Position numbers and translations under genes: made by a program. From Cyathus striatus (taxonomy: Eukaryota > Basidiomycota > Agaricomycetes > Agaricales > Nidulariaceae): a stretch of 64,000 nucleotides of DNA. The DNA is taken from NCBI GenBank assembly GCA_025738555.1, contig JAOVFP010000017.1:2604001-2668000 (forward strand), written 5' to 3'. Position 1 is the stretch's first letter; the number at the start of each line of letters is the position of its first letter. Positions 10,691 to 52,289 of this stretch are shown here, piece after piece. Under the pieces are notes generated by a model. It made no database searches. It worked only from the letters and a program-made list of their open reading frames with translations, and was not told where the DNA came from.

Positions 10691-11455
10691 AACAAAGTAT
10701 GAAAGATCAATGTCACAATGTTAACGATCGAGCCTTCGTATAGTCCTAATAGCATGAGCGAATGAACAACCAGGTTAGGGTTAGAACGGCTTACCAGAAT
10801 GATCGCAGAACAAAAGATCAACAATGATCAGGCCCGCTAATCTGCAACGAAACATGGGCTCAGGTGAGAGGCGTCGTCATGTACACCTTTACTCTCGAGA
10901 TAATCCTTCGTCGTAGGTATTCGAATTCAAACGCTGGGTCTAGCACCGCAGATACGATCCTCGATCTCCGTCTTGTCATAGGTAGTCGGCCATGCGGGCC
11001 TAGGGCTTGTCGAGACTACGCACTAAGTACCAACGATTATCGGAGTGCGCGAGACACCATTCGATGGGGACAGCTAACTTAAAGGCACCGTCAGGACCGA
11101 GTACCATGTACCATGGCTGCTCTGGGAAGCTAAATCCCGAAGAAGTAGACTCCAGCATGAACGATGACTTTCAGCACTCTGGGAATCAATGACTCACGAC
11201 CTGTAGAGAATCGATATCTACGTACACGTTGACATTTACATTGTCAACGAAGGGAATATATAGTACAATATTGGAGACATCGTACCTGTAGTAGCTATAC
11301 GCCCTCGTCCTGGGGGTTCGACCAAGCCCATGGCCCATCCTGCTGCTAGCAGGATCGACATCGGCGGCGCTAGGTGTATAGGAACCTGAGGTATACCACA
11401 AGGAAAAGGAACCCAAATACGTCCTTCAACCAGCTCGACGCACGGCTTCCACAAC
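10660..11455 (-). pseudogene. Partial dynamin-like GTPase copy 1
   Basis: This stretch aligns by eye with the intact dynamin gene at 40310-41395. Shared blocks include AGCATGAGCGAATGAACAAC (intact gene 40500), CAGGCCCGCTAATCTGCA (40580), CTCGAGATAATCCTTCG, and the promoter-proximal GTTTTTACAAA. About 135 bp matching 40340-40475 are missing, and the reading frame is broken throughout. Only the GTPase-domain end of the gene and its upstream region are present. It is a decayed segmental duplicate, in the same orientation as the parent. Confidence 0.82.
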
Positions 11456-11589
11456 AAGGTTTTTACAAATTTTACAAACGCCCAAAAGAGTCAAGACAGC
11501 GAGGAGACTCTCATCACTTGAAGAGCCTGTTAAAGTCAGATATCCAAAATCTCATAACCCTGTAGCTTGAGACGCGATTGCGCTCTGAG

Positions 11590-11700
11590 GGATGGATGGT
11601 GCTGGTTTCTTGAATCACTTTAGGGCGATAATGCTTCCTCATTGCTCAAACATAATCGCGCGTTCATGGTGCTCCTCGACATTGGAGGTTCGTCGCATAA
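11590..11700. other. Paralogous empty site 1 of the 10.7-kb element
   Basis: The sequence GAATCACTTTAGGGCGATAA followed by TGCTTCCTCATTGCTCAAAC corresponds to the two flanks of the element at 41520-41538 and 52284-52330 joined together, with only small differences. No insertion is present here. Confidence 0.7.
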
Positions 11701-11789
11701 TGCACTACCAAAATGGAAGTGAGAATAAGTCCAATGTTCAAGCAACGCCTAAGTTCCCGATAAGAAGTAAACATACACACCTTTAACTG

Positions 11790-13725: not shown

Positions 13726-13965
13726 TATTGTCAACAACGGGAAGGAATCACAGGCAATATTAGGGACACATATCCTGTACTATACGTCCTCACCCTTGGG
13801 GATTTCGACAAGCCCATCCCCACCACTGCTAATGGTGAGCCGACACCTGCGGCGCTGAGGCACAAGAACGCCTGAGGTATACCACAGGAAAGGTACTGAT
13901 AGTATCGACCAGCTCCCGACGCACAGCTTCCAAATTCTTCACAATAAAGTTTTCACAAACGCCCA
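13726..13965 (-). pseudogene. Partial dynamin-like GTPase copy 2
   Basis: This matches the first exon and upstream region of the intact dynamin gene (41050-41400). Shared features include TATTGTCAACAACGGGAAGG, the GACACATATCCTGTACTATA block, CTTGGGGATTTCGACAAGCCC (parent: GGGGGTTCGACAAGCCCACC) and the upstream AATTCTTCACAATAAAGTTT. Only the N-terminal linker portion is present, and the frame is not maintained. Confidence 0.75.
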
Positions 13966-14059
13966 AAAGACAGTGAGGGGGAGACTCTTATCACCGGAAA
14001 GAGCCTTTCAAAGTGACACGCAACCGCGCTCTGAGGGATGGTTGGCGAGGGATTCTCGA

Positions 14060-14165
14060 ATAGCGTTAGGCGATAACGCCTCCTCATTGCTCAAATGTAA
14101 ACGCGCATTCATGTAAGATATGCTGCACATACCACTTGACGTTGGAGGGTTCGTGGTTCATAGCA
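14060..14165. other. Paralogous empty site 2 of the 10.7-kb element
   Basis: CGAATAGCGTTAGGCGATAA followed by CGCCTCCTCATTGCTCAAAT and CGCGCATTCATGTAAGATAT corresponds to the joined left and right flanks of the element at 41539-52283. No insertion is present. Confidence 0.68.
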
Positions 14166-38539: not shown

Positions 38540-41299
38540 CTAAAGTCCAACTCGTAACAGCTGCTCGCTGGCGACGTTGAGCCTCTGGAGTTTCTTAGAC
38601 AGCTCTTCGCGACGGTGTGCAACCTGTGGACTCTCTTGTACCAGCTCCTGGCAGATACGAGCAGCATCCACCCCATTAAGTCCAAGGCCACTGTACAGCT
38701 CTTTCAGTGCTCCGCGCTCGACACCACGGATGAGCTCATAGTCAATCGCCAACGGGATGTTATCCACAAACCGCTTGTACGAAACTGCAAAAGACAGTCC
38801 ATGAGCAGATGAATTGGTAACCGAAACGATTACAATGCACCTTGAAAATACGAGCGCACATTCGCCATGATTTCCAATGCGGGCTCCATCTCGTCACCAG
38901 ATAACAGTTTCGCAAAATCCTTCTCCTCGACACGAGAAAACCCCAGAGCTGCGAGCCCACTCAGTACCGAATTGACATGACTTTGGCTGTCGTGACTGTC
39001 GTCAGGTAGATGCTTACCTTTCCTCGCGTCCTTGTAGTGCGCTAGGAACTTGTCCTTGTAGTCTTGCAGGTAGTGCGTATTCAGCGAGAAAGGGCTCCCT
39101 TCCACCTCCAACAGCCACTTAATCTTCTCCTGGGTACGCTGAAGACATTTCTTGAGATGGCCATGGAGGATGAGACTGCAATGTCAACTTAGTGTGAATC
39201 AAGAATAATTTCTAATAAAATGACGTACTGGATCCGATTTTCCAAGTTTCCTTGGCCAAAGTCAGCGAAGTGTTCCGTTACGAGCTCGCGGATGTAGTCC
39301 ACTAAGGTACCATGGATCTTGTTACAAAGCAAGATCGTAGGAGCTTCCCAGTTCTTAAGGAACTCTTCAATGTACTTCCGTTGTACAATGAACGGGTAGT
39401 GACCAGGCAGCTCGCGAGTACGTGCCCTAAATGTAAACATGATGAGCAAACATATGCACAACTACTATAAGTATAACTTACTTCTTGGCTCTTTCCAGGA
39501 CTTCATCGATGTATATCGCATGCGCACCGGTGTCGTCAAACTTACCATCGTCAGTGGATAGGAAAGAAGGGACGTCCAACGAAGCTTTATACGCCCTTTC
39601 CTTCTCGAACGGAACGAAAGCAGGTGCCGTCGCGCGGATTTGTCCACGGAAATGCTCTTGGAATGGCTGAATCGCCTGTAACAGTCCGTCATCATCCGGA
39701 ACACCATCGACGTGCTGACGAAGATCGGCCGCGAAGGAATATAGCAATGTCGCGATCTCGCTCAATGGATCCTTAGACGGCTCGTGAGGGAGCAGACTTA
39801 TATCCTGGGTGGTTTTCAAAATCATTTTCTGTAGCTCGTCTTGTATCCCTGGAAGTCTGTGCGTGCAGCATGAGTTGCCAGAACAAATACAGGGAGCTAT
39901 CTCACCGCTTCGAGATCAAATCAGACAAGATTGAACTGAGACGTTCAAGAAGATTGAACGTGCGGAGGTACTTTTGGTAGACCGAATCAAGCTCAGACCA
40001 GGGCGGGGTCATCGAAAAGAATCTATTTTCACTGGATCGAGCTTCCTCCCAGGACATACCAGTCTTAAGCTCACTAGAGCTCGGTTGCTTTACACAGTAC
40101 CAGTTATTGAGGAGTGGCTCCCTCTCATTACGAATGTACGCAAGCCACGATTGTTCTTCTCCTTGAGGGATGCGATCCGGCTTCGTGAGGACACCTAGAC
40201 AACATTGAGTGTTACATCTAAAACTGTGCATGTTGTACACCTACCGATGGTCCTTTTGCCTTCGGGGTCGTGGAGTCTAGCGAGATTGAAGGCGCCCTGA
40301 TTTTCAAAGTCGGCTACGAAACGAGTTAGTCTAGAACAAAGTACGAAAGGTCAAGCTTACTCACTCTCACAGGTGACCGTCAATAGAATAATGCAACTGG
40401 GCTTCTTAATGTACGATGTAACAAGGTTCTCCACAAGAGCGATATCGCTCGTGCTCCCACCACGGCTAACGCTGGCAATCAAGCCTTCGGATAGTAGTAG
40501 CATGAGTGAATGAACAACAAGTTAGGTTAGCACGGCTTACCAGGAAGATCGCAGAATGAAAGATCGGCAACATCAGGCCCGCTGATCTGCAGCGAAACGC
40601 AGTTGGTGGAAAAGCTCAGCTGAGAGGCTTCGCCTTCTACATCTTCACTCTCGAGATAATGCTTCGCGGGGGTGTTCGGGTTCAAAATTGCACGCTGAGC
40701 ACGGCGAATACGATCCTCGACCTCCTTCTTGTCATAGATGGTCGGTCCGAAAAGCTCATTACGCGCCTGTCCTAGGACTTGTCCGCCCGCGTCTGTGGTG
40801 AAGCGGAGAGAGACTACGCACTTCCAACGATCTTCAGAGCGCGAGAGACGGCATTCGGTCGGACAGCTGTGTGAAGAGTGTCGGTAACGGTTATTATCTT
40901 AAGAATCAATATATACCGAGTGCATGTACCGGCTGCTCTTGGAAGCGTAATCCCAGAAATAGACTCGATGAGTGACGATTTTCCAGCACTCTGGGACCCA
41001 ATGACCGCGATCTGTGGCAAATCTATATCTACCTGCACGCTATCATCCACGTTGTCAACAATAGGAAGAAATGCAGGAAATACTGAAGACACGTACCCTG
41101 TGCTATGCAATTTATTGACAAGGTCCAGCATACGCCTTCGTCCCTGAGAGAGCTGGGGGTTCGACAAGCCCACCCCATCACTGCTAGCAGGAGCGACATC
41201 GGCGGCACCAGGTACCGAAGCCTGAGGCATACTAGAGCTGCTAGACGAAAAAGACACTTCGGATTCACTTGCAGTTTCAAGCTGGTCGGATGCGGACAT
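38540..41299 (-). CDS. Dynamin-like (Mx/Vps1-type) large GTPase
   Basis: From the ATG at 41299 the protein starts MSASDQLETASESEVSFSSS. After a serine-rich leader it shows the dynamin GTPase domain: AVIGSQSAGKSSLIESISG (P-loop), AGTCTRCPTEC (switch I), FCDLPG (G3) and GVLTKPDRIPQ (G4). The middle/stalk region includes FNLLERLSSILSDLISKR, HYPFIVQRKYIEEFLKNW and HGTLVDYIRELVTEHF. The C-terminal GTPase effector domain holds VSYKRFVDNIPLAIDYELIR and ends LLRVGL-stop at 38540. About eight introns interrupt it, and exon junctions keep the frame. No PH or transmembrane segment is seen, so it is closer to Mx/Vps1-like membrane-remodelling GTPases than to classical dynamin. Partial copies lie at 10.7-11.5 and 13.7-14.0 kb. 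A transposon now sits 240 bp upstream of the start, so its promoter may have been cut. Confidence 0.92.
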
Positions 41300-41532
41300 C
41301 AGAATAAGTAAGAAAAGAGGGCGGAGGAAGCCAAGCTGCAAGGAAAGGTATAAGTATGTCAACCTGCCCCGCACGACTTCCGAATTCTTCACAATAAGGT
41401 TTTTACAAAACGCCCAGAAGACGGCGAGGGAGCTCTTATCGTTTGAAGAGTCAGATATCCAGAAGCTCTTAACCTTGTGGTTTGAGATGCGATCCGCGTT
41501 CTGAGGAATGATGCCGCCTGAAGCGCTTTAGC

Positions 41533-41538
41533 AATAGC
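41533..41538. repeat. Target-site duplication, left copy (10.7-kb element)
   Basis: AATAGC directly before the left TIR; identical to 52284-52289. Confidence 0.88.
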
Positions 41539-41564
41539 TACGGTAGCCGAGAAGGAGCAGGTCT
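41539..41564 (+). repeat. Left terminal inverted repeat
   Basis: 26 bp starting TACGGTAGCC and ending GCAGGTCT; the perfect reverse complement of 52258-52283. Similarity does not extend inward. Confidence 0.92.
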
Positions 41565-42525
41565 ATCTTCTCACAAGTATAGTAGCTCAGCCTCCGCATT
41601 TGGCACTTTAACATCAAAACGTGGTGAGTTTTAGGGGTCCTGGAACCCTGTCCTTCACCGATGCACAAACAGACTACTCTTATTGGTAAAAATAAGTATT
41701 ACTTAGTTACATCTATAAGCAAATGGTTAGGGTTTCCTCAGAAGAAATGTGGATGTGACTGTGATTCTTATGTAATTAACTTACTTGGCAAGGTCTTTCG
41801 TCCACGATTGAATTTGAGGGCCATTATGCGTGATGTGTCATGTTGTTTTCCGTCGGCCTAAGCGCTCAGCGGTTCAACTTAGCCGGCGTCTGCGAGTGTT
41901 TGTGCCGACGCGCGTCAACTGCATTTCCATTGACGTGTCTCCGTTCCAGCCATATGAATCTCACTTCCTCTATCTTCCTGGTCTCGGTATGGCACGTCGA
42001 TCTACACTTACTGCTATGGGTCACTGAAACACATCGTGGTCAGCCCCGACGGACTAGTGGAGTTTGTTGTGCCGCCTTCACTGGGCCCCCTCACCTCACT
42101 TCTATGAGCTCGTTTACTCTGCTTGTCTTAATGTTTGGGAATCTTCGTGATAGATGGGTTGTATCAAGTTGTATTTTGCATGGGTACTCTTTAACCGGGA
42201 AATATACACTCAACACTCTATGTATGTGACTAGTGTTTGTTGTAAGTGAGTGTTCATTAAAGATTACAATGCTACTGTTTTACAACTACTCTACAATATA
42301 ACAGCGGTGGCAGGTGCTATTTGTGCTGTTTGGTTTCCCCTTCTTTATTGGGGTGTTGTTGAACCCGTTCCACCACTCGCTTCATCTCCTCCTGACTTCA
42401 GTTGTCTTCGCAAGGGGAATATGCTTGAGTACGCTACAGTTTTACTTGGTTATGAAGCTCATTGGCAATTCATCGTGTGTCTCATTACTCCTGCTGTATA
42501 CCTCTCTCTCGGTTACCACTAACAG
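41565..42525. other. Element left subterminal region
   Basis: I see no gene here. Plus-strand frames at 41840-42229 and 42250-42522 have no recognisable motif. The end at 42525 is a splice-acceptor-like AACAG in front of the BAR/PH exon. Confidence 0.4.
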
Positions 42526-43677
42526 GTATTGAAATCTGCCAAGCGCGCTCTTGACAACTCCCGCATTTCACTTCCTTTCTTTTTCTGTTCTCTTTACTTT
42601 TTCCTCCTTATCACGTTGTTCCTCTTTGAGCAGTACTAATGAGCCATTTGCAGAACATCCAAAACGACACCGGCAAACTCGCAGCAAACGTCGCCAAAGA
42701 ATGCAAACCCTCCACATGGCTCATCGGCGAGCTCGCAAACGACATTTCCTCATTCAAGAACATGCCCATGAATGTCACCAGCCGCATGGACCCGTAAGTA
42801 CCCCCCTCATCCCCTCCGCTACCTTTACTGAACGGTACACTAGATACGTCGCGAGCCTCCACGTCGCACACCAGCTGCAGAAACAAGTCCTCGAAGAAAA
42901 TCTCCTTCAAAAATCCATAATCATGATGCAGCAGAACTTGGCCGACTTCGAAGAGGGCATTGTGCGCTCTATCCAATCTGCATGGGTGTCCTTTAACGAG
43001 TGGCAGTCGCGTGCTGCTACGTCCTCGCAGGATGCCTTCCGTACGTTAGGAAACCAGATGGCTGCTTTGCAGCCTGATAAAGAGTGGATGTCGTTCGCTG
43101 CGAGGAGTGATCATCTTTTGGACCCCGAGGCAATCTTGTACCCGCTCAAGGACGATCCGAGTGTTATTCCTGTGCATACGGGTTATCTGGAGCGCAAACA
43201 ATGCTTTACGAGGACGTATAAGGAAGGATACTTCATCCTTACCCCCGCTGGCTTTTTACACTCGTTCGCGAACTCTGATCTAGCTAAAAGTTCGACACCG
43301 ACCTTCTCCATCTTCTTGCCGTTGTGCACCCTCGGCCCGCCATCTACTCCCTCTTCCAAGTCGAACAAGTTCCATATAGAAGGGAAGAAGGATAGGCTGG
43401 GTACGACGAAGGGCGGAACGAGTCTTAAGAGCATATTCTCCAGCGACTCGCAGCGTGCGTGTGTTATGTATCGCTCACGCTGATGGAAGAGTTCAGTACA
43501 CCATGTGGGAGGTCGAAGCACGGCTTAACAACTCTTTCACTTTGCATTGCTTGTCGAGACTCGGTGTTCATATTCTTTCTTTCTCTCTCTTCGGTGTATA
43601 CCACTGACTCCCTTTTTCGATATAGAGAAAAGAAGTGCAAGGGCGGTAAATCAAAGAAGACCTTGATGGTAATGTGA
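42526..43677 (+). pseudogene. SLM1-type BAR-PH protein fragment captured in the element
   Basis: Plus-strand exons encode VLKSAKRALDN (42526 on), then NIQNDTGKLAANVAKECKPS followed by TWLIGELANDISSF (from 42654). After a GT-AG intron at about 42794-42843 come YVASLHVAHQLQKQVLEEN, QSAWVSFNEWQSR and EAILYPLKDDPSVIPVHTGY, then LERKQCFTRTYKEGYFILTP. This is the order of a fungal SLM1-like protein: an F-BAR-like helical domain followed by the start of a PH domain (VHTGYLERK). Such proteins bind phosphoinositides at the plasma membrane. The N-terminal exons and most of the PH domain and C-terminus are absent. Host introns are retained, so the piece was captured from genomic DNA rather than through an mRNA. 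Confidence 0.75.
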
Positions 43678-44129
43678 ATCCAGTGAGTGGTGTCTTGTTT
43701 CTCGTTCTTGCATGCTCATGTGTGCTAAATTTTATAGTTAGGGACTGTTCTATATCAAAGAGGAATCTATTACATACCTACACGGTACTGATACCTTTGT
43801 ACTACTAATATGAACGATATACTTATGTATTTCACCATTTTACATCATCAAATTTGTTTGCTAAAAGGTGTGACATAGGGAAACGGGATACTCCTAAGCT
43901 AGTGGTGGTATGATTCGCTGTTAGGCTAGTCTCAGTACTGGATTATGGACGCTAGGGACACTATCAATGTCAATTCAAAGGAGGTTCATTGTTCGTCATA
44001 ACTGATTAGTAAGAACTACTACCATCAAGCAAGGTTTCAGCCTTTATGTGTTCGGTAACCCGTAATGATAGAATCAATGTTGAAATAATACATTCTGAAT
44101 TCTGATGAAACAACGGTTTACAGTAACAG
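43678..44129. other. No gene recognised
   Basis: AT-rich spacer inside the element between the BAR/PH fragment and the convergent RNase H1 N-terminal-domain gene. Confidence 0.5.
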
Positions 44130-44745
44130 TTAAGCCAGGACTTCTGTAGAGCCTTCTTCTATAGCCTTTTTCATCCGGGAATGTCCTTCTTCAATGCTCC
44201 CAACCCGTCGCCATACTGCCCCAGAAACACCATTTACAAGACCTGAGGCTGTCTCCCTGTGAAATTTAAGGTAAGAAATACGATAGCAAGTATTTGTACT
44301 TACCAGCTATCGAATATACCAATTTTTCGACCACGAGTGATAATGTAATAGCGTGATTTATTCTGTCCAGAGGTGCAATTGTTCAATGGCACATGGTAAA
44401 AGCACGGTTTACCATTGGCATCAGTAGCAAAGGCCATAGGATTCCCAGACCTGGAAATTGGTGGTGTTTCGACAGCAGCAGTGTCAGAAGAGGGGAGAGA
44501 GCGTGTAGGAATGGTATCTGTGGTGGTGGCGATTCCGGTAGAAGCTGAAACGAGTGCTTCACCAATCACTTTCAAGTCAGAGCGTGCAATACCCATGTTT
44601 TTGAAGATCGTGGTTAGTTCTACAAATCATTCGTCATTCAACATTAAATAATAAATTCTGGAATACATCACTTACCATTAATCTCAACGCTATTGCTAGT
44701 GCTCTTGATAGTGTCAGAGGTTTTGGTAGAATGATCTTGAGTCAT
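44130..44745 (-). CDS. RNase H1 N-terminal (hybrid-binding) domain protein
   Basis: Three minus-strand exons (44745-44676, 44619-44304, 44256-44130) join in frame to 170 residues. The N-terminus MTQDHSTKTSDTIKSTSNSV and a threonine/serine-rich middle precede KSRYYIITRGRKIGIFDSWE then TASGLVNGVSGAVWRRVGS. That is the YxxxxGRxxGIxxSW...V.G..GA..... signature of the RNase H1 N-terminal domain, which binds RNA:DNA hybrids or double-stranded RNA. No catalytic RNase H domain follows; the protein ends EEGSTEVLA-stop. Stand-alone proteins of this kind occur in mushroom genomes. Its location inside the transposon makes a role in element nucleic-acid handling possible, but this is inference. The reading frame is intact. 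Confidence 0.82.
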
Positions 44746-45986
44746 TTTTACTAGAGACCGGGTGCAAGTAGAGGCGATGGAAGAGACAAGGAAATTGGAA
44801 GAAAATCAGTCGCTTTTAAGATATCAATGTAAAGACACGTTGTAAAGTGGCTTTGAGAATATTGCTTCTTCAAATCAACTTCTATGTTCAACGTACATTT
44901 CTGAGAATAATATAAAGTTTAGAAATGCATAAAAGATTGGCTCTCTGACAAATTTCCGGTTGGTGTCCCAATCTAGAATAAGCTGTCATGAAGTAATATC
45001 CTTGATTAGAGTGCTGCGTTTCATACCACTGTGTCCGACTCTCAAGTTCAACCATAGCACCACTTTCCCCTTTATCTGGTATAAAAAAAATTGAGAGGAT
45101 TCTAACAAGATTCAAGATATCTCCAAGCTATGTCAAGACAAGATCAATGGGGCAACTTCAAGATTTCTTCACTGATGCATGTTGAACATGATGCAACAAA
45201 TGCGGCCACCAGCTTGCTGCCCAGTCTGGCATTCCTCACTTTGACCTTACACTTTGTTTGTATTTGTGGCTACTTATTCCTTTCCCATTTCCTTGTTCTC
45301 AGCAGTCCCCGGTCTCTCCTCGTTGCTCAGCCTCCTTGTTGAGGTTGAGTCAAATCTAGTGTCTTCTGGTAATCCCAGAAGACTCCACCGCTCTCACTAG
45401 TATTGTGCATGGATTATACTGGTTTTCTCACTGCACCCCAACAGTTCTTGTGATGTATCGCTATTATACAATGAATATACATTATAGATTCTCCTTGACC
45501 TTGGTACTTGAGAGCAACCATTTTAATTCATGTTCCTACCTTCACATCGCAGGCACCGTGCACGCCTATTAGGAAGCACAGCTGCGAATCATTTATCTTG
45601 ATTCTTGTCTCAAAGTCATCACAAAGTCATTGGGTCCTAATGTTAGTGGAGATGGACGCTCTTTTTGGTGCAAGAGTTTAATCTAGATTCTACATTTCAG
45701 CACATCTCCCGATGGATTCTCCAGCCATAGCATGAAGAAATGTATCGTTTGTGAACAAAGTTTTGCATGCTTCGGTGCTTACGTTCTCAGTGGTTCTGTG
45801 TGTTGCAAACGTGGTTCCTTGACACTTTTTGCTGCAGCTGGGGCTTGTACGAGTTACTCCCTCACACTGTTTCCTTGTTATCATGTCCTTGTATAATCGA
45901 AACCCTCGGGGTAAAAATCAATACAAAGAAGTTTGTATGTTTGAAGTAATATAATTTCAGTTGATATTCTCATTTGAAATCTTTAG
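44746..45986. other. No confident gene; region upstream of the integrase gene
   Basis: This should contain the promoter and at least one 5' exon of the integrase-like gene, because its first visible exon begins in the middle of a codon. Open frames at 45130-45342 and 45767-45949 have no family signature. Confidence 0.4.
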
Positions 45987-47482
45987 TGCCAGCATCGGAT
46001 CCCATTCTTCGTGATGCCCTCATGAAGTACCACCGTGAACTTGTCACCAAACCTGAAGATATATCTGAGAGGTTGAGAGCAGAGTATGACATAGAGATGA
46101 AGTTCGTGCTATTTGCTGAAGTTGTCAAAAGTCACGACTCACCCACTAATTGTGATCTAGTCCCCATACTATTAAACGAAGACGCAAAGAGTTAGGATTA
46201 CATGGAAGTCGTACAACTATGAAACATTTAGGTGATATTGAGGCCCAGCAACTTGTTCTAGATTTGGTTGATGCAGATCTCGCTGGTCAACAAGGTCCTC
46301 GTACAATTCGCCATAAGCTAGCAATGGAACAGGGAATTCATCTACCTCGAGACTATGTCACACAAAAAATGCACATTCATGCTCCTGAAGGATTTGAACA
46401 TCGTGATCCAGGTGCAAAGAAAATCCAGAGAACACCAAAAGTTCCAGTTGGATGTAATGAACGGTGGGCAGCTGATGGACATGACAAACTCTACCGCATT
46501 GGTTTTCCCATCTGGGCTATAGTCGATGATGCCACTGGCAAATTCATTGATGCTTGGGTTGTTCCCAGCAATCGACTTGGTAGTACCATTGCCTACCTAT
46601 TTCTCTGTGCTGTAGAGAAAGCAGAAGGTGCGTTGAGATGTTTGAAGTATTTTGTATTTCCAACTGGTAATTTGATTGTGTTTTTGGGTTTTTCTTACTA
46701 GGTCTGCCTCTTCAAGTCAGTACTGATTGCGGTTCTGAGACTACCAAGCTGCATGGGCTTGCGGTGGCTCTTCGGTGTGTGGCATTAATTGCACTGATAT
46801 TCTAATCTTAAAGTTCTGAAACCTCTCTGTTGCTTTTAGTCAAACAGCACACCCGGATTACGAGCACGAAGCATTCCCTGCCCATGTATATCTTAGAAGT
46901 GTCCACAACATTTCCATTGAAAGATCTTGGCTTCGTTTAAAGCTCAAATTTGGGGATACTGCTGTACAAGCATTCCAAATGGGTGAAGAAACTGGAATGT
47001 ATAACCCGCACAATCCTAATCAGTAGTGAGTATACTTTTTCTCTGTTTCACCTTATGGTTTTTCTGATTTATATAAGTGAATTATGTCGTTGGCTCTGGT
47101 CCAAACTACTTCGAAAAGAACTGAAAAGATACATCAATATTCACGATGCCTATAGAATGCGTAAAAATAAAGAGAAAGCTGGACCATCTGGAATGTCACG
47201 CAATCATGCATACAGTGTTCCAGAGTCATGGGGGGGTCGCAACTGCATTCTTCCAGTGGATCTGAATGTTGTGCGTGAAGTCAAACAAGCTATGATCGAA
47301 TCAGAAGATGGACCTCTGCTTGAGTTTGTGTCAAGTGAATATGCGGAGAAAGCCCAGGAGGCATATGATAGCTTACATATTCAAAATCTGAACTTCGGTA
47401 ACGTTTGGCATATTTTTGGATCACTACTACAAATTCTCTACTAGCCCCTGCTACTTACTTACCTTTGAAAGATATTCAGTAA
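45987..47482 (+). CDS. Integrase-like DDE protein, candidate transposase
   Basis: Six exons (45987-46101, 46161-46627, 46702-46774, 46840-47025, 47078-47397, 47445-47482) give 399 residues in one frame. The first codon is split (xTG), so a short upstream exon is missing from my model. The N-terminus has a winged/HTH-like segment (EMNPHTIKRRRKELGLHGSR). The rve-like catalytic core follows: WAADGHDKL (first Asp), STDCGSET (second Asp, 58 residues between) and NISIERSWLR (Glu, 42 between). The tail continues with ELCRWLWSKLLRKELKRYIN and NHAYSVPESWGGRN, ending LPLKDIQ. The fold is that of retroviral/IS3-like integrases, and this type is common as 'integrase core domain' proteins in mushroom genomes. 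Inside a TIR/TSD-bounded element it is the likely mobilising enzyme. The catalytic triad is intact. Confidence 0.88.
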
Positions 47483-47662
47483 TATCGTACCATAGCTGAA
47501 GTAAAGCAGAATAAAGTTAAGCTCTTATCAGCATTCGCAGAACTTGCATTTTAATATCACTGAAACATTTGTTCCGAATGAAAACCGCTCACACATGCAA
47601 CGTGCTTCAGATCCCAGCAACCACCAGTCTACTAGTGCTATATATACAGTTGATATGCTAGC

Positions 47663-50303
47663 ATGTGTTCAAATTTGCGTGCAAGACCTATCCCTCTACA
47701 TATGACTATCTGTACAGATTGTTCTAATTCCTTTCCACGACTTCCTGACTCGAAGTGTAACAAATGTTTACAGAAATTTCCTGGAAAGTCAGAGCCCGAG
47801 CTTCGGCAACTGTCTGTAAGTTACTAAATTTCAACATCCTGAATAACGAATTGATGAGTCAACTATTTTTCTTTAGGAAAGACCACAGTGCGCAGCCTGT
47901 GGCATAATGACCAGTCGCATTCGTGGTGGTCTTTGTGCTGAATGCATAACTCACTACAGTGAGTATACGACCTACATTGATATTTCCCCATATTAACGTG
48001 ACATTTACTATTTAGAAACACAAGAATTAGTTCCAAAAGTGCTGTATGAAAGATTTCCTTCCCTACATCAGATTCTTCAAGCCACTACTAATAGTGATGC
48101 CGACTTGGAGTTTGCCCAGCATGAATTTGAATTTGATGCAAGTCGCAGTGGTAGCATTTCAACAACTTCCGATCCCAATCAGATTGCAGCCTCTGTTTTT
48201 CAAATAGCTGCAACAGCTCAGTCCAATGCTTCACAACATCGCTTTGGACAGAAAGTACGCACTGTTTCGAAGGGTGGAAATTTGGGAAGAGTAAACCATG
48301 CAGTTGCATTCATGGATGAGCGCCACCAGAAGAAAAACGACCATACGGCTCAACAGTTGGTAGCATTAGCTGGCCTTAAAATTACTGCAACCATTTGGCA
48401 GTTAAAACTTTCGACTGGAAAGATGAATGAGGTATGTTTGTGTTAAACGATATTCATACTTACTTAACTGACCGTAAATGTATGGTTTTAGTTGGCCTAT
48501 ACTCGTATAACAAGGGTATACAATACATATGATTCTGTAAAGACTGCGCTAGACGATCTCCTATCTCGAGTGCGACAACAATTTCAGTCTCGTCACCCTC
48601 AGGCTGCGCAGTTAAACTGGTGTGAAGTCTGCATAGTTTCAATAATATAATAAACCTGATTATTTGATTCTTAGGGGTAATGTCACCGTATACTCCCATG
48701 AAAATAAAGGGAGATACTCGTCTGTAACGATCCAATGGGACAAGAAAGTTCGTGACTTGCTTAATGAATTTGTTACTCAAAGGCTTGGAAGTGCTACATC
48801 ACTGGCAGCTAACGAAATAGAGATGTGCCTTGTCTATACATTTGAAAATGTTGTATGTGTTTTCTTAGCATTTTCAACGTGTGCAACTCATTCATTCATC
48901 ACTTTGCACTCTAGTTTCATACTGAAGATGACAGTGATTATTTAACATCATCAGCTGTACGAAGTAGTGCAAGAGAAGGCTCACGCAAACGAGCTCTCAG
49001 CTCAACAACCGCCAAGGATTTCTCAGAAAATCCTCCAAACCGGTCCAAGACAGGCATGGGCTCCAAGGGGCGACCAGTACTTCGCAGTGGATACAGAATT
49101 CCAGATCACATCAGGTCTAATACACCCGGAAGCTTCATTGGGAACAAAATATTCCAGGCTCGCAATGTGGAGATGATCAGTTGCACCTTTATTTGTACAA
49201 CAGCACACTTTGATCCCTCTGGCTCTGGAGAGGTTACGATGAAGAAAGAAGAACACCTTCACTCTATTGAAGTGGCGGCTAGTAACAGCTGGATGGAAGG
49301 AGAGAAGCTCTTTGAACAAAATCAACATTTCAGAACTGGATTCGTCGGAGTTGGATCTACGAAAAGAGCTATCTATGTATGTCTGTTATTTGTCTAATTA
49401 TAATATTTCTTTATGTTCTCATTCACACAATGTAGGCTCGATATAAGAACAAGGACTATGTCGTTACACAGCCAAAGGATGAAAAAATGACACACGATGA
49501 AGTGCTTCGCACACTGAAGGAGGAGTATCATCTTCTATGTCAGTGTGATGGCTTTAAAAAATTGTTCGATGAATATTCACATGCATGTGAAGTATATACC
49601 ATACCCAGTAGGTTCATCGTCATCTTAACTTTATAGCCAGGTTAACATCAACTTGCAATGTTTGCTTAGAATTCTACTTTAACTTTAGCGGAGCCATCCT
49701 TGGAGAACTGGTGGAAACAGCCTCTGGTGGTCGCTCACTCCCACACAAATTTTTTCTTGCTACTCCACTTCTACCATGCGGAGAGGTTGATCCCCCGGTC
49801 AAGAAGTTCACAGGAAACGATGTGCTTGGACCATCAAGTGATGACCTCACCAAAGCCATACATTCTTTCGTACACTATACATTGAAGTATACGAACAACT
49901 ATTTTGCACCCTGTGATCTGCAAGGTATGGGTATCCATACAGATACATTTTATACATATAGCCTACTAATGCGAATGATTTCAGGAGCACCAGACATCCA
50001 AGGTATTATGTGTTTAATTGACCCACAAGCACACACGTAAGACAAACCATTGCTCTGTACCGTCACAGACTGACTACTTAAATTAGAGGAGAACCTGATG
50101 CACAAAAGCGGGTGTACTGGGATAGAGGCCCCAATGAAATAAACGAACTCATTGACCAACACGAAAAAGTATGCTCCGATAACTGGGTATGCAAGAAGCT
50201 AGAGCTTGCATCTGTCATCGTTGACAATGAATCTGAGGAATCTTCTCAGCGGTTGCAGGAGAGAAAGGAGAGGCACGATCTTGAATATATCTTGGAACCT
50301 TAA
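47663..50303 (+). CDS. Alpha-kinase with N-terminal zinc-ribbon-like domain
   Basis: Ten exons from the ATG at 47663 sum to 2115 nt, an uninterrupted 704-aa frame. The first 80 residues hold four cysteine pairs (CTDC, CNKC, CAAC, CAEC), like two zinc ribbons. A long linker follows, containing REGSRKRALSSTTAKDFSEN. The C-terminal third is an atypical alpha-kinase domain (MHCK/eEF2K family): AIYARYKNKDYVVTQPK, YFNFSGAILGELVETASGGR, DLTKAIHSFVHYTLKYTNNY, then the signature DLQG...QGIMCLIDPQAHT. The closing segment is YWDRGPNEINELIDQHEKVC followed by SDNWVCKKLEL, whose His and two Cys match the structural zinc site. The gene starts 180 bp after the integrase-like gene, on the same strand, inside the transposon. 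Substrate unknown. Intact and probably functional. Confidence 0.88.
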
Positions 50304-50445
50304 TCAGATTATACATTATTATACCGCCGTGTTTTTATTCTTGATTTTCTGTCGAGATGCTGCAGATTTGATATGAACGCCACACTTCAATTTTGAACAT
50401 AGTTGTTGATATATTTTGCTGAGCTCACATAGTAGAGCAGTTAAG

Positions 50446-50643
50446 GAATACAGTGGGGAGAAAGGAAACGACAAAGCAGGTAAGCTCGCTAATGAAGGCA
50501 CAACTGCCAACCCAACTGACAACACAGTCAATCTACACATCCCCCGCACCCTACGCACCTCAGGTACGAAGCTGAGCACCATGACCCAGGCCACCGCCTA
50601 CAAAGGAATACTGTGCGAGTCCATCAATAAGCCGCCCAACTAG
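50446..50643 (+). pseudogene. LINE RNase H fragment inside the element
   Basis: The plus strand encodes GEKGNDKAGKLANEGTTANP, followed by IPRTLRTSGTKLSTMTQATA. This is the GxxGNDxAxxLAxEG block at the C-terminal end of a LINE-type RNase H domain, related in layout to the copy at 16670. No reverse transcriptase or tail is recognisable, so it is a short remnant. Confidence 0.6.
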
Positions 50644-51159
50644 TGCAGCACGACCTGTAACCCCGACATTGTAAGATACACACAGGATCAAACGCAAGGA
50701 TTTGAGTGCCATGGCGAAGACATGGTCTAGAGTTGCAGCACCAGTAAGCGAGTGAGAGTTTGAACGAGAGAGGGCATGCATTACTGGTCGTGGGCTTAGA
50801 TCAAGTGTCGTGGCACCGGTGGGTGGGTGGGGGCTCGGGTGAGGGAGCGGGGGTTGCTGTGCGGGATCCTGAGGGTGGGTGGGAAAGCGATTGGTTTTCC
50901 CATTTACGAAGAACCCCTGAGGGCTGGTGTGTGTCCTTGAACTTCTTCAATTTCTTCACAGCAGGTGGTATAATACTAACCAGTCAAACGGAGATGAGAG
51001 ACAATGAGAACGAAATACACGGGACTAACTTTTGAGAGCTGATAGAGCTGCTCTGCTTGACCAGCGCGCAGAGATAATTCCAATCATAACGTTTCCAAGA
51101 GTCATCATGATCACAAGCATGATTCAAACGCCCACACAGATGATGATGGTGGGAGTGAT
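50644..51159. other. No gene recognised
   Basis: A GGGT/GGTG-rich stretch at 50815-50880 and otherwise unremarkable sequence inside the element. Confidence 0.4.
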
Positions 51160-51537
51160 GTTGAGGACCGGGTCGAACATAAAGATGATGAAAATAGTAG
51201 AAATATAGGCACTGGTGAAGGCGATGACAGTGTCACTGTCCTTCACACTATATTCTTTGAGGAGTTTGGCGTCGGCAAGGGCTTTACCCTTTAGAAGGAG
51301 GCGGTAGGCATCAGGTGGAGGAGTAGTCAGTTTCTTAGCGAGCTTGTCCTTTATAGCAGCAATGGTATCCGTTGGCTGGATTGACAGGGTGAAGGTCGCG
51401 GGGGCTTGAAGGATTTGAACACGAGCGAGATAGAAGCTGTGAAGGATGGAACATATGTTTAAGAACAATCGACATTGAGAAGCCCCTAGGCTGCGGACGT
51501 ACCTGCAGAAGACATGGATGCCTCTGGCTGTTTCCAC
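51160..51537 (-). pseudogene. Ubiquitin-like domain remnant
   Basis: The minus strand encodes QILQAPATFTLSIQPTDTIA, then AIKDKLAKKLTTPPPDAYRL and LLKGKALADAKLLKEYSVKD. This is the beta-hairpin, helix and LLxKGKxLxD turn of a ubiquitin-like domain. A plausible upstream exon (EWKQPEASMSSA near 51500-51540) precedes it, but the splice phase does not fit by one base, and the sequence after SDTV loses similarity. It is most likely a captured or decayed partial gene near the right end of the transposon. A small functional gene with an unusual intron cannot be excluded. Confidence 0.55.
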
Positions 51538-52257
51538 TCAGGAGCTGGAGGGACCGGAATCTACGCGAGTAAGAATACACATTGAATTGGGTGGCCCAAT
51601 GGTGCACGATGAAGAATAAAACCACGAGACTTGAGCCGACAAAAAACCTACATAAGATTTATTATTGAGATTGTCAAGATCCTACTACTCCCGTAAAGCA
51701 AAGCAGGGAAGCGGAGCGTACCCGAAACAGCAACAGCTGTCCACCCCATCCAACCCTCTCGCTTTGTCCTTCCTATATCCCATAGGTGCCCCCACTGGGC
51801 TTACACAGCTTCTTACGCCAGCGATCACTGAGTTATTGTAGCCACTTGTGGTATAGCTACAACACAAGGTCAAGTAAAGATATACAGTAAGAAATGTATG
51901 CACCTACCGAGAAGGAAAAACAACGATAAAGAGGGTAGAGGTAGAGGGGAAATGGACTCAGGACTGAAGGAGTTGACAGAGGAAAGAACACGAGTGCCGG
52001 CACAAATGTGCATCGGCGCTCGTGACTAGCTTAGGTGATCTTTAGCGCTACCATTCCTAATATTTCATATGGTCATTGGTATCTTTACACATGTCTGTCT
52101 ATGCTGAGCGCTCTGTCACAACTTACAAAAGACATAATAAATGTGTGTACATGTACCTGCGGACTGCAAAGGGGGGTTCATCCCTTCCTACAACATGCCC
52201 CAATATTAGCATACAAAGACCCCACTCATAACGGAACGAGAAGCCATCAAAAGCAAC
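51538..52257. other. Element right subterminal region
   Basis: I find no gene. A minus-strand frame at 51685-51903 has no recognisable motif. Confidence 0.4.
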
Positions 52258-52283
52258 AGACCTGCTCCTTCTCGGCTACCGTA
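52258..52283 (-). repeat. Right terminal inverted repeat
   Basis: 26 bp ending CTTCTCGGCTACCGTA; the perfect reverse complement of 41539-41564. Confidence 0.92.
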
Positions 52284-52289
52284 AATAGC
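52284..52289. repeat. Target-site duplication, right copy (10.7-kb element)
   Basis: AATAGC directly after the right TIR; identical to 41533-41538. Confidence 0.88.

Follow-up and report, generated by a model that had tools for sequence, protein, structure and literature searches.

Structure and boundaries of the element

The window analysed here is a stretch of 64,000 nucleotides from Cyathus striatus (contig JAOVFP010000017.1, C17:2604001-2668000 in our numbering; assembly size 107.45 Mb), and positions refer to it unless another sequence, such as C1, is named. Between 41539 and 52283 it carries a transposon of 10,745 bp in which the gene of an integrase-like DDE protein precedes that of an alpha-kinase-fold protein (Table 1), and which is best read, from its sequence features, as a DNA transposon of the IS3EU type. 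Its terminal inverted repeats (TIRs) are identical over all 26 bp (mean of 0.00 matches in 100 shuffled windows), and AATAGC at both flanks forms a perfect 6-bp target-site duplication. Both features had been claimed in an earlier interpretation of this DNA, here called the sequence-only reading, together with two empty paralogous sites in the window, and all of them were recovered. The joined flanks aligned across the junction to the first site with a score of 154 (best of 30 shuffles, 33) and to the second with a score of 97 (best of 30 shuffles, 29). Because these scores far exceed those of the 30 shuffles each, the bounds of the insert are confirmed as first described. The two matching regions are diverged paralogues, not alleles; they count as paralogous sites that are empty, not as data on strains. 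Assembly error was assessed through these sites and through other copies of the element. Taken together, the element is confirmed as real, in its boundaries as in its copies.

Table 1. Features of the element, its insertion site and the unoccupied sites in the window
Feature	Position	Strand	Details
Unoccupied paralogous site 1	11450..11730	+	Joined-flank alignment
Unoccupied paralogous site 2	13939..14127	+	Joined-flank alignment
Target-site duplication, left, AATAGC	41533..41538	none	Flank reading
Left TIR, 26 bp, TACGGTAGCC...	41539..41564	+	TIR comparison, genome pattern search
Putative captured host BAR/PH fragment (open stretch matched)	42842..43480	+	PF20400/PF20399; parent-like copy C2:66754-67407
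RNase H1 N-terminal-domain gene, 170 aa	44130..44745	-	3 exons (44676-44745, 44304-44619, 44130-44256); PF01693 3.2e-7
Integrase-like DDE transposase (likely), 419 aa	45883..47444	+	6 exons; triad D161, D220, E263; PF24764 1.3e-13
Double zinc-ribbon alpha-kinase-fold protein, 691 aa	47702..50303	+	10 exons; PF02816 8.9e-12; T471, T549
Putative captured ubiquitin-like fragment	51217..51426	-	PF00240 4.9e-13
Right TIR, 26 bp	52258..52283	-	TIR comparison
Target-site duplication, right, AATAGC	52284..52289	none	Flank reading

Copies of the element in the genome

A pattern search of the 107-Mb genome with the TIR, allowing up to 3 mismatches, gave 18 matches, and a control pattern gave 0. The matches formed 7 pairs and singles on C15, C1, C13 and C22; the partner of the C22 single was recovered by a looser pattern. 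Duplications of a clear 6 bp flank four of these 8 pairs, three have 5 bp (two of them ambiguous with 6), and one lies in a C-run, so that the 6-bp duplication expected of other copies was found in part of them. The copy at C1:2581202-2582593 is an internal-deletion derivative that has kept both ends and the duplication; it lacks the sequence corresponding to window 42544-43460. C15:2527389 resembles this derivative over 1205 bases, and its second end was not found. In six elements of 1.2-1.3 kb, the sequence shared with the long element is confined to about 109-117 and 64-71 terminal bases. A 1.3-kb non-autonomous relative was also seen at C22:1208837-1210141, about 160 bp beyond the kinase of a diverged C22 copy.

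C1 carries a second long copy (~6817288-6829107, right TIR at 6817288), which is decayed but has the cargo of the window element. It lacks 17 bases of its left TIR and contains two additional inserts. Over 10,131 aligned bases, 240 transitions fall on CpG sites in the window copy and 22 on CpG sites in the C1 copy, with 226 other transitions, and the CpG observed/expected ratio is 0.25 in the C1 copy versus 0.69 in the window copy. The window copy is therefore the less decayed of the two, and the CpG depletion on C1 would fit methylation decay of a silenced element. In the C1 copy no internal stop interrupts the integrase gene. The kinase gene contains 4 internal stops, and one of its splice donors is altered; in the RNase H1-N gene there is one stop, and one base is missing. 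Integrase and kinase lie on one strand in the window, C1, C13 and C22 copies. The TIR matches, the deletion derivative and the second long copy bear out the proposal that this is a family of large TIR transposons.

The integrase-like protein

The gene models of integrase and kinase are predictions made here; both are open, with GT-AG introns. In a protein search the integrase aligned with its homologues over the full length; 193 were found at E 0.001, and among the best 120 of these many were full length and 40-60% identical. The named ones among the matches listed are, as we take it, Agaricomycetes. The DDE triad is intact, and a single cysteine precedes D161, i.e. there is no HHCC motif before the core. 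An integrase fold is present in the structure model of homologue P0001. Sequence-only searches of the PDB with the integrase gave no match. The claim of an intact integrase-like gene is thus upheld, and it is likely, judging from the triad and the fold of the homologue, that this protein moves the element.

Association of integrase and alpha-kinase genes

In the genome, 53 integrase matches clustered into 20 loci and 35 alpha-kinase matches into 35 loci. A kinase lies within 10 kb at 10 of the 20 integrase loci, where about 0.13 would be expected; in 20,000 randomisations, for which the limit was 12 kb, near pairs averaged 0.16 and numbered at most 3. As a control, another sort of integrase (60 Pfam integrase-model matches in 27 loci, with one C15 locus common to this set and the 20) was near a kinase match at none of its loci. 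These results indicate that the integrase and alpha-kinase pair is not from chance. In seven of these 10 pairs the two genes lie on opposite strands, in three (window, C1 and C22) on the same strand; outside these 10, tblastn found a same-strand kinase at the C13 locus. The C18 integrase locus gave no match to the window kinase. Genome searches with Pfam models were weak on split genes: PF24764 (150 of 217 candidates scored) missed the window integrase, PF01693 missed the window RNase H1-N gene and PF02816 missed the C13 kinase. The locus counts are therefore lower bounds.

No integrase locus occurs within 10 kb of 25 of the 35 kinase loci. About a dozen or more mutually similar kinase matches stand without a nearby integrase (e.g. 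C11:3148743, C3:525530 and C14:1617206), and two fetched examples of such loci gave no integrase match by tblastn. Kinases of the C11:3148743 type possibly belong to another mobile or host family.

The pairing recurs outside this genome. When residues 430-660 of the kinase were used as query, 10 homologues were found in other sources. For three of them the kinase locus tag is consecutive with that of an integrase (Tephrocybe rancida, Candolleomyces aberdarensis and Arthromyces matolae), and in Gymnopilus dilepis the two form one fused gene model in the same order as in the window, integrase then kinase. The kinase of Hebeloma cylindrosporum and one integrase match come from contigs of equal length. 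Five of the 10 had no such integrase partner among the matches listed (best 120 of 193). The expectation that the two genes would be found together elsewhere was thus borne out at 10 of 20 genome loci and in 4 of 10 outside homologues, adjacent or fused.

A second architecture

At C12:2356590-2363396 we found an element with 65-bp TIRs (94%), a TTGGAT duplication and TACGG ends. Its integrase, a relative of that in the window, is encoded on the minus strand, whereas the kinase, with the motif YYAAK, lies on the plus strand. Its TIR pattern with up to 3 mismatches gave 38 matches in the genome, against 4 for a control pattern. The C12 and window elements are alike in carrying integrase and alpha-kinase, in TACGG ends and in a 6-bp duplication, but differ in gene orientation, TIR and kinase motif. 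A C12-type TIR also occurs at C17:1241577-1243399, beside another integrase match and with no kinase match nearby. No convincing TIR pair was seen in the stretches examined around the integrase-kinase loci on C6, C19 and C9, which were possibly too short.

The ATP site of the kinase-fold protein

The sequence-only reading had described an intact alpha-kinase of 704 aa; in the present model the frame is likewise open, with GT-AG introns, and the length is 691 aa. A search with the whole protein gave 0 matches at E 0.001 among 7993 candidates scored; the probable cause is a list taken up by uninformative words. The kinase core is conserved among the 10 homologues, which are 33-39% identical overall to the window protein, and zinc ribbons are visible in 4 of the 10 aligned rows, the remaining 6 being gene models without that end. 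An active alpha-kinase should have the alpha-kinase fold, which is present in the structure model of homologue P0125. It should also have a Lys and a Glu in the ATP site, which in MHCK A are K645 and E713 (PMC9921739). The window family has T471 and T549 at these positions. Both threonines are invariant in all 10 aligned proteins, and Thr is also found in the C22 copy.

T549 aligns gap-free with D or E of other kinases in a MAFFT alignment. At the Lys position computed alignments failed: the N-lobe was misaligned in a global profile alignment that combined same-strand with opposite-strand kinases, and MAFFT opened gaps at the beta-3 lysine in the other kinases. T471 was therefore matched to the Lys by eye, from the motif order G-x-G-x-x-K-x-A ... 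YVxT in a strand preceding the long helix; the match also draws on the invariance of the Thr and on the motifs YYAAK, YVAK and VAVK of the other kinases. The residues suggest that the window protein may not be an active kinase. That the element disseminates an alpha-kinase, as had been proposed, holds in so far as the gene travels with it, but the wording calls for caution because the family protein is without the two ATP-contact residues.

Comparison with known transposons

The earlier suggestion of an IS3-like eukaryotic transposon led to the right comparison, namely IS3EU, because the termini, the duplication length and the integrase-type transposase fit. IS3EU/GingerRoot elements share with the window element TA..TA ends, a usually 6-bp duplication and a transposase core with no HHCC motif preceding it (PMC10045372); the word kinase is absent from the main text of that paper, as far as available, whereas the window element has an alpha-kinase. 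Ginger1 has a 4-bp duplication, in contrast to 5 or 6 bp in the 8 TIR pairs here, and Ginger2 has 4 or 5 bp, compared with 6 bp in the window element and 5 bp in 3 of the 8 pairs, the duplications alone being compared (PMC10045372).

The pairing itself, thought undescribed in the sequence-only reading, has already been published briefly for TET+ IS3EU families, which are known from rusts and the truffle Tuber indicum (Kojima 2025, PMC12730594). The rust families share with the window element 6-bp duplications, TAYGG..CCRTA ends (TACGG..CCGTA here), and transposase and alpha-kinase within the element. All TET+ families have these genes in opposite orientation with a TET/JBP gene between them, whereas the window element has them on one strand and contains an additional intact RNase H1-N gene; the C12 element has the opposite-strand arrangement of the TET+ type (PMC12730594). 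No TET/JBP domain was found with Pfam among the five element proteins scanned, the rest of the element being outside that scan. In a search of open-licence literature, Repbase not included, only Kojima 2025 among the papers examined describes the pairing, and no paper was found on it in Agaricomycetes. As far as searched, the occurrence in Agaricales, the same-strand gene order and the invariant Thr where an ATP site would have its Lys and Glu are new.

Proposed role of the pair and alternative explanations

We consider it very probable that the element is a cut-and-paste transposon of the IS3EU type, moved by the integrase, with the kinase-fold protein as a long-kept second gene that serves the element. 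The integrase-like protein would bind the TAYGG...CCRTA ends, excise the element and insert it by a staggered cut, giving the 5-6 bp duplication. The alpha-kinase-fold protein would be a second gene long retained by such elements, and probably acts as an accessory. Its zinc ribbons would allow it, e.g., to bind or act on the transposase, or on repair or silencing in the host; in the same-strand family it would do so without the canonical ATP-site lysine. The pairing, published in rusts and found here in Agaricales, spans what we take to be two basidiomycete subphyla and therefore suggests an old role in transposition.

Several observations weigh against this interpretation. The homologue model of the integrase had low TM-scores (0.16-0.53) to PDB chains. 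The 26-bp TIR is shorter than the >30 bp of rust TET+ families, which is a description of those families and not a rule of the superfamily (PMC12730594), and some family duplications are of 5 bp. Six integrase-kinase pairs, one of them from Hebeloma cylindrosporum, for which adjacency is not known, showed no signal of co-divergence (r -0.15, permutation p 0.58). The dN/dS values for the C13 copy, 0.70 and 0.86, are biased by CpG decay, as are all such comparisons with decayed copies. Finally, 10 of the 20 integrase loci have no kinase match within 10 kb (C13 excepted by tblastn), so that the kinase is lacking, or escapes detection, at some loci. This last point would also be expected if the kinase were a passenger captured by chance, with no function for the element, like the BAR/PH and ubiquitin-like pieces; the element does take up host pieces, and the C1:2581202-2582593 derivative has both ends and the duplication without a kinase, as in non-autonomous copies. 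A passenger is nevertheless unlikely in view of the kinase near half of these integrase loci and none of the 27 control loci, its presence in two distinct architectures, its adjacency to or fusion with the integrase in other fungi, and the conservation of its core.

It is quite improbable that the protein is a working kinase of benefit to its host, with the element spreading as a beneficial carrier. The window copy has an intact kinase frame, and alpha-kinases are termed highly expanded in rusts in one genome paper (PMC4469406), but T471 and T549 occupy the ATP-contact positions, and the 4 internal stops in the long C1 copy mean that that copy was not kept by the host. If many of the expanded rust alpha-kinases are IS3EU genes, such counts partly measure transposons. 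Least probable, and very much so, is that two unrelated genes were trapped between TIRs mobilised by another transposase: catalysis by the window integrase is a prediction, yet its triad is intact, its homologue has the integrase fold, and a relative of it is found in the C12 element, whose TIRs differ.

As to the kinase of the IS3EU-type element proposed here, a tentative idea, to which we give somewhat less than an even chance, is that in same-strand agaric IS3EU elements the ancestral transposon alpha-kinase became a conserved pseudokinase or an altered nucleotide-binding protein. The Lys-Glu pair would have become Thr-Thr, with the catalytic-loop aspartates and zinc ribbons kept, and the elements would employ the protein to counter host silencing or as a structural partner for the integrase. 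For the chemistry of alpha-kinases, conservation of Thr-Thr in the ATP site would amount to a natural experiment.

Other cargo and the neighbouring gene

The remaining cargo agrees with the claims of an RNase H1 N-terminal-domain gene and of captured host fragments. The RNase H1-N gene is present in the long C1 copy and partially in C13, and had no match in the C22 stretch; a relative (58% aa) occurs outside the element at C3:4812240-4812842 and, with the same match pattern, at C5:2602073-2602675. The BAR/PH piece, 92% identical in amino acids to its C2 counterpart, recurs in the loci on C1 and C13, and the ubiquitin-like piece is also in the long C1 copy; both look like captures from host genes. 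The insertion adjoins a gene at window 40814-41527, presumably dynamin-like from its G1 motif, and two paralogous regions lie at 11.3-14.1 kb of the window.
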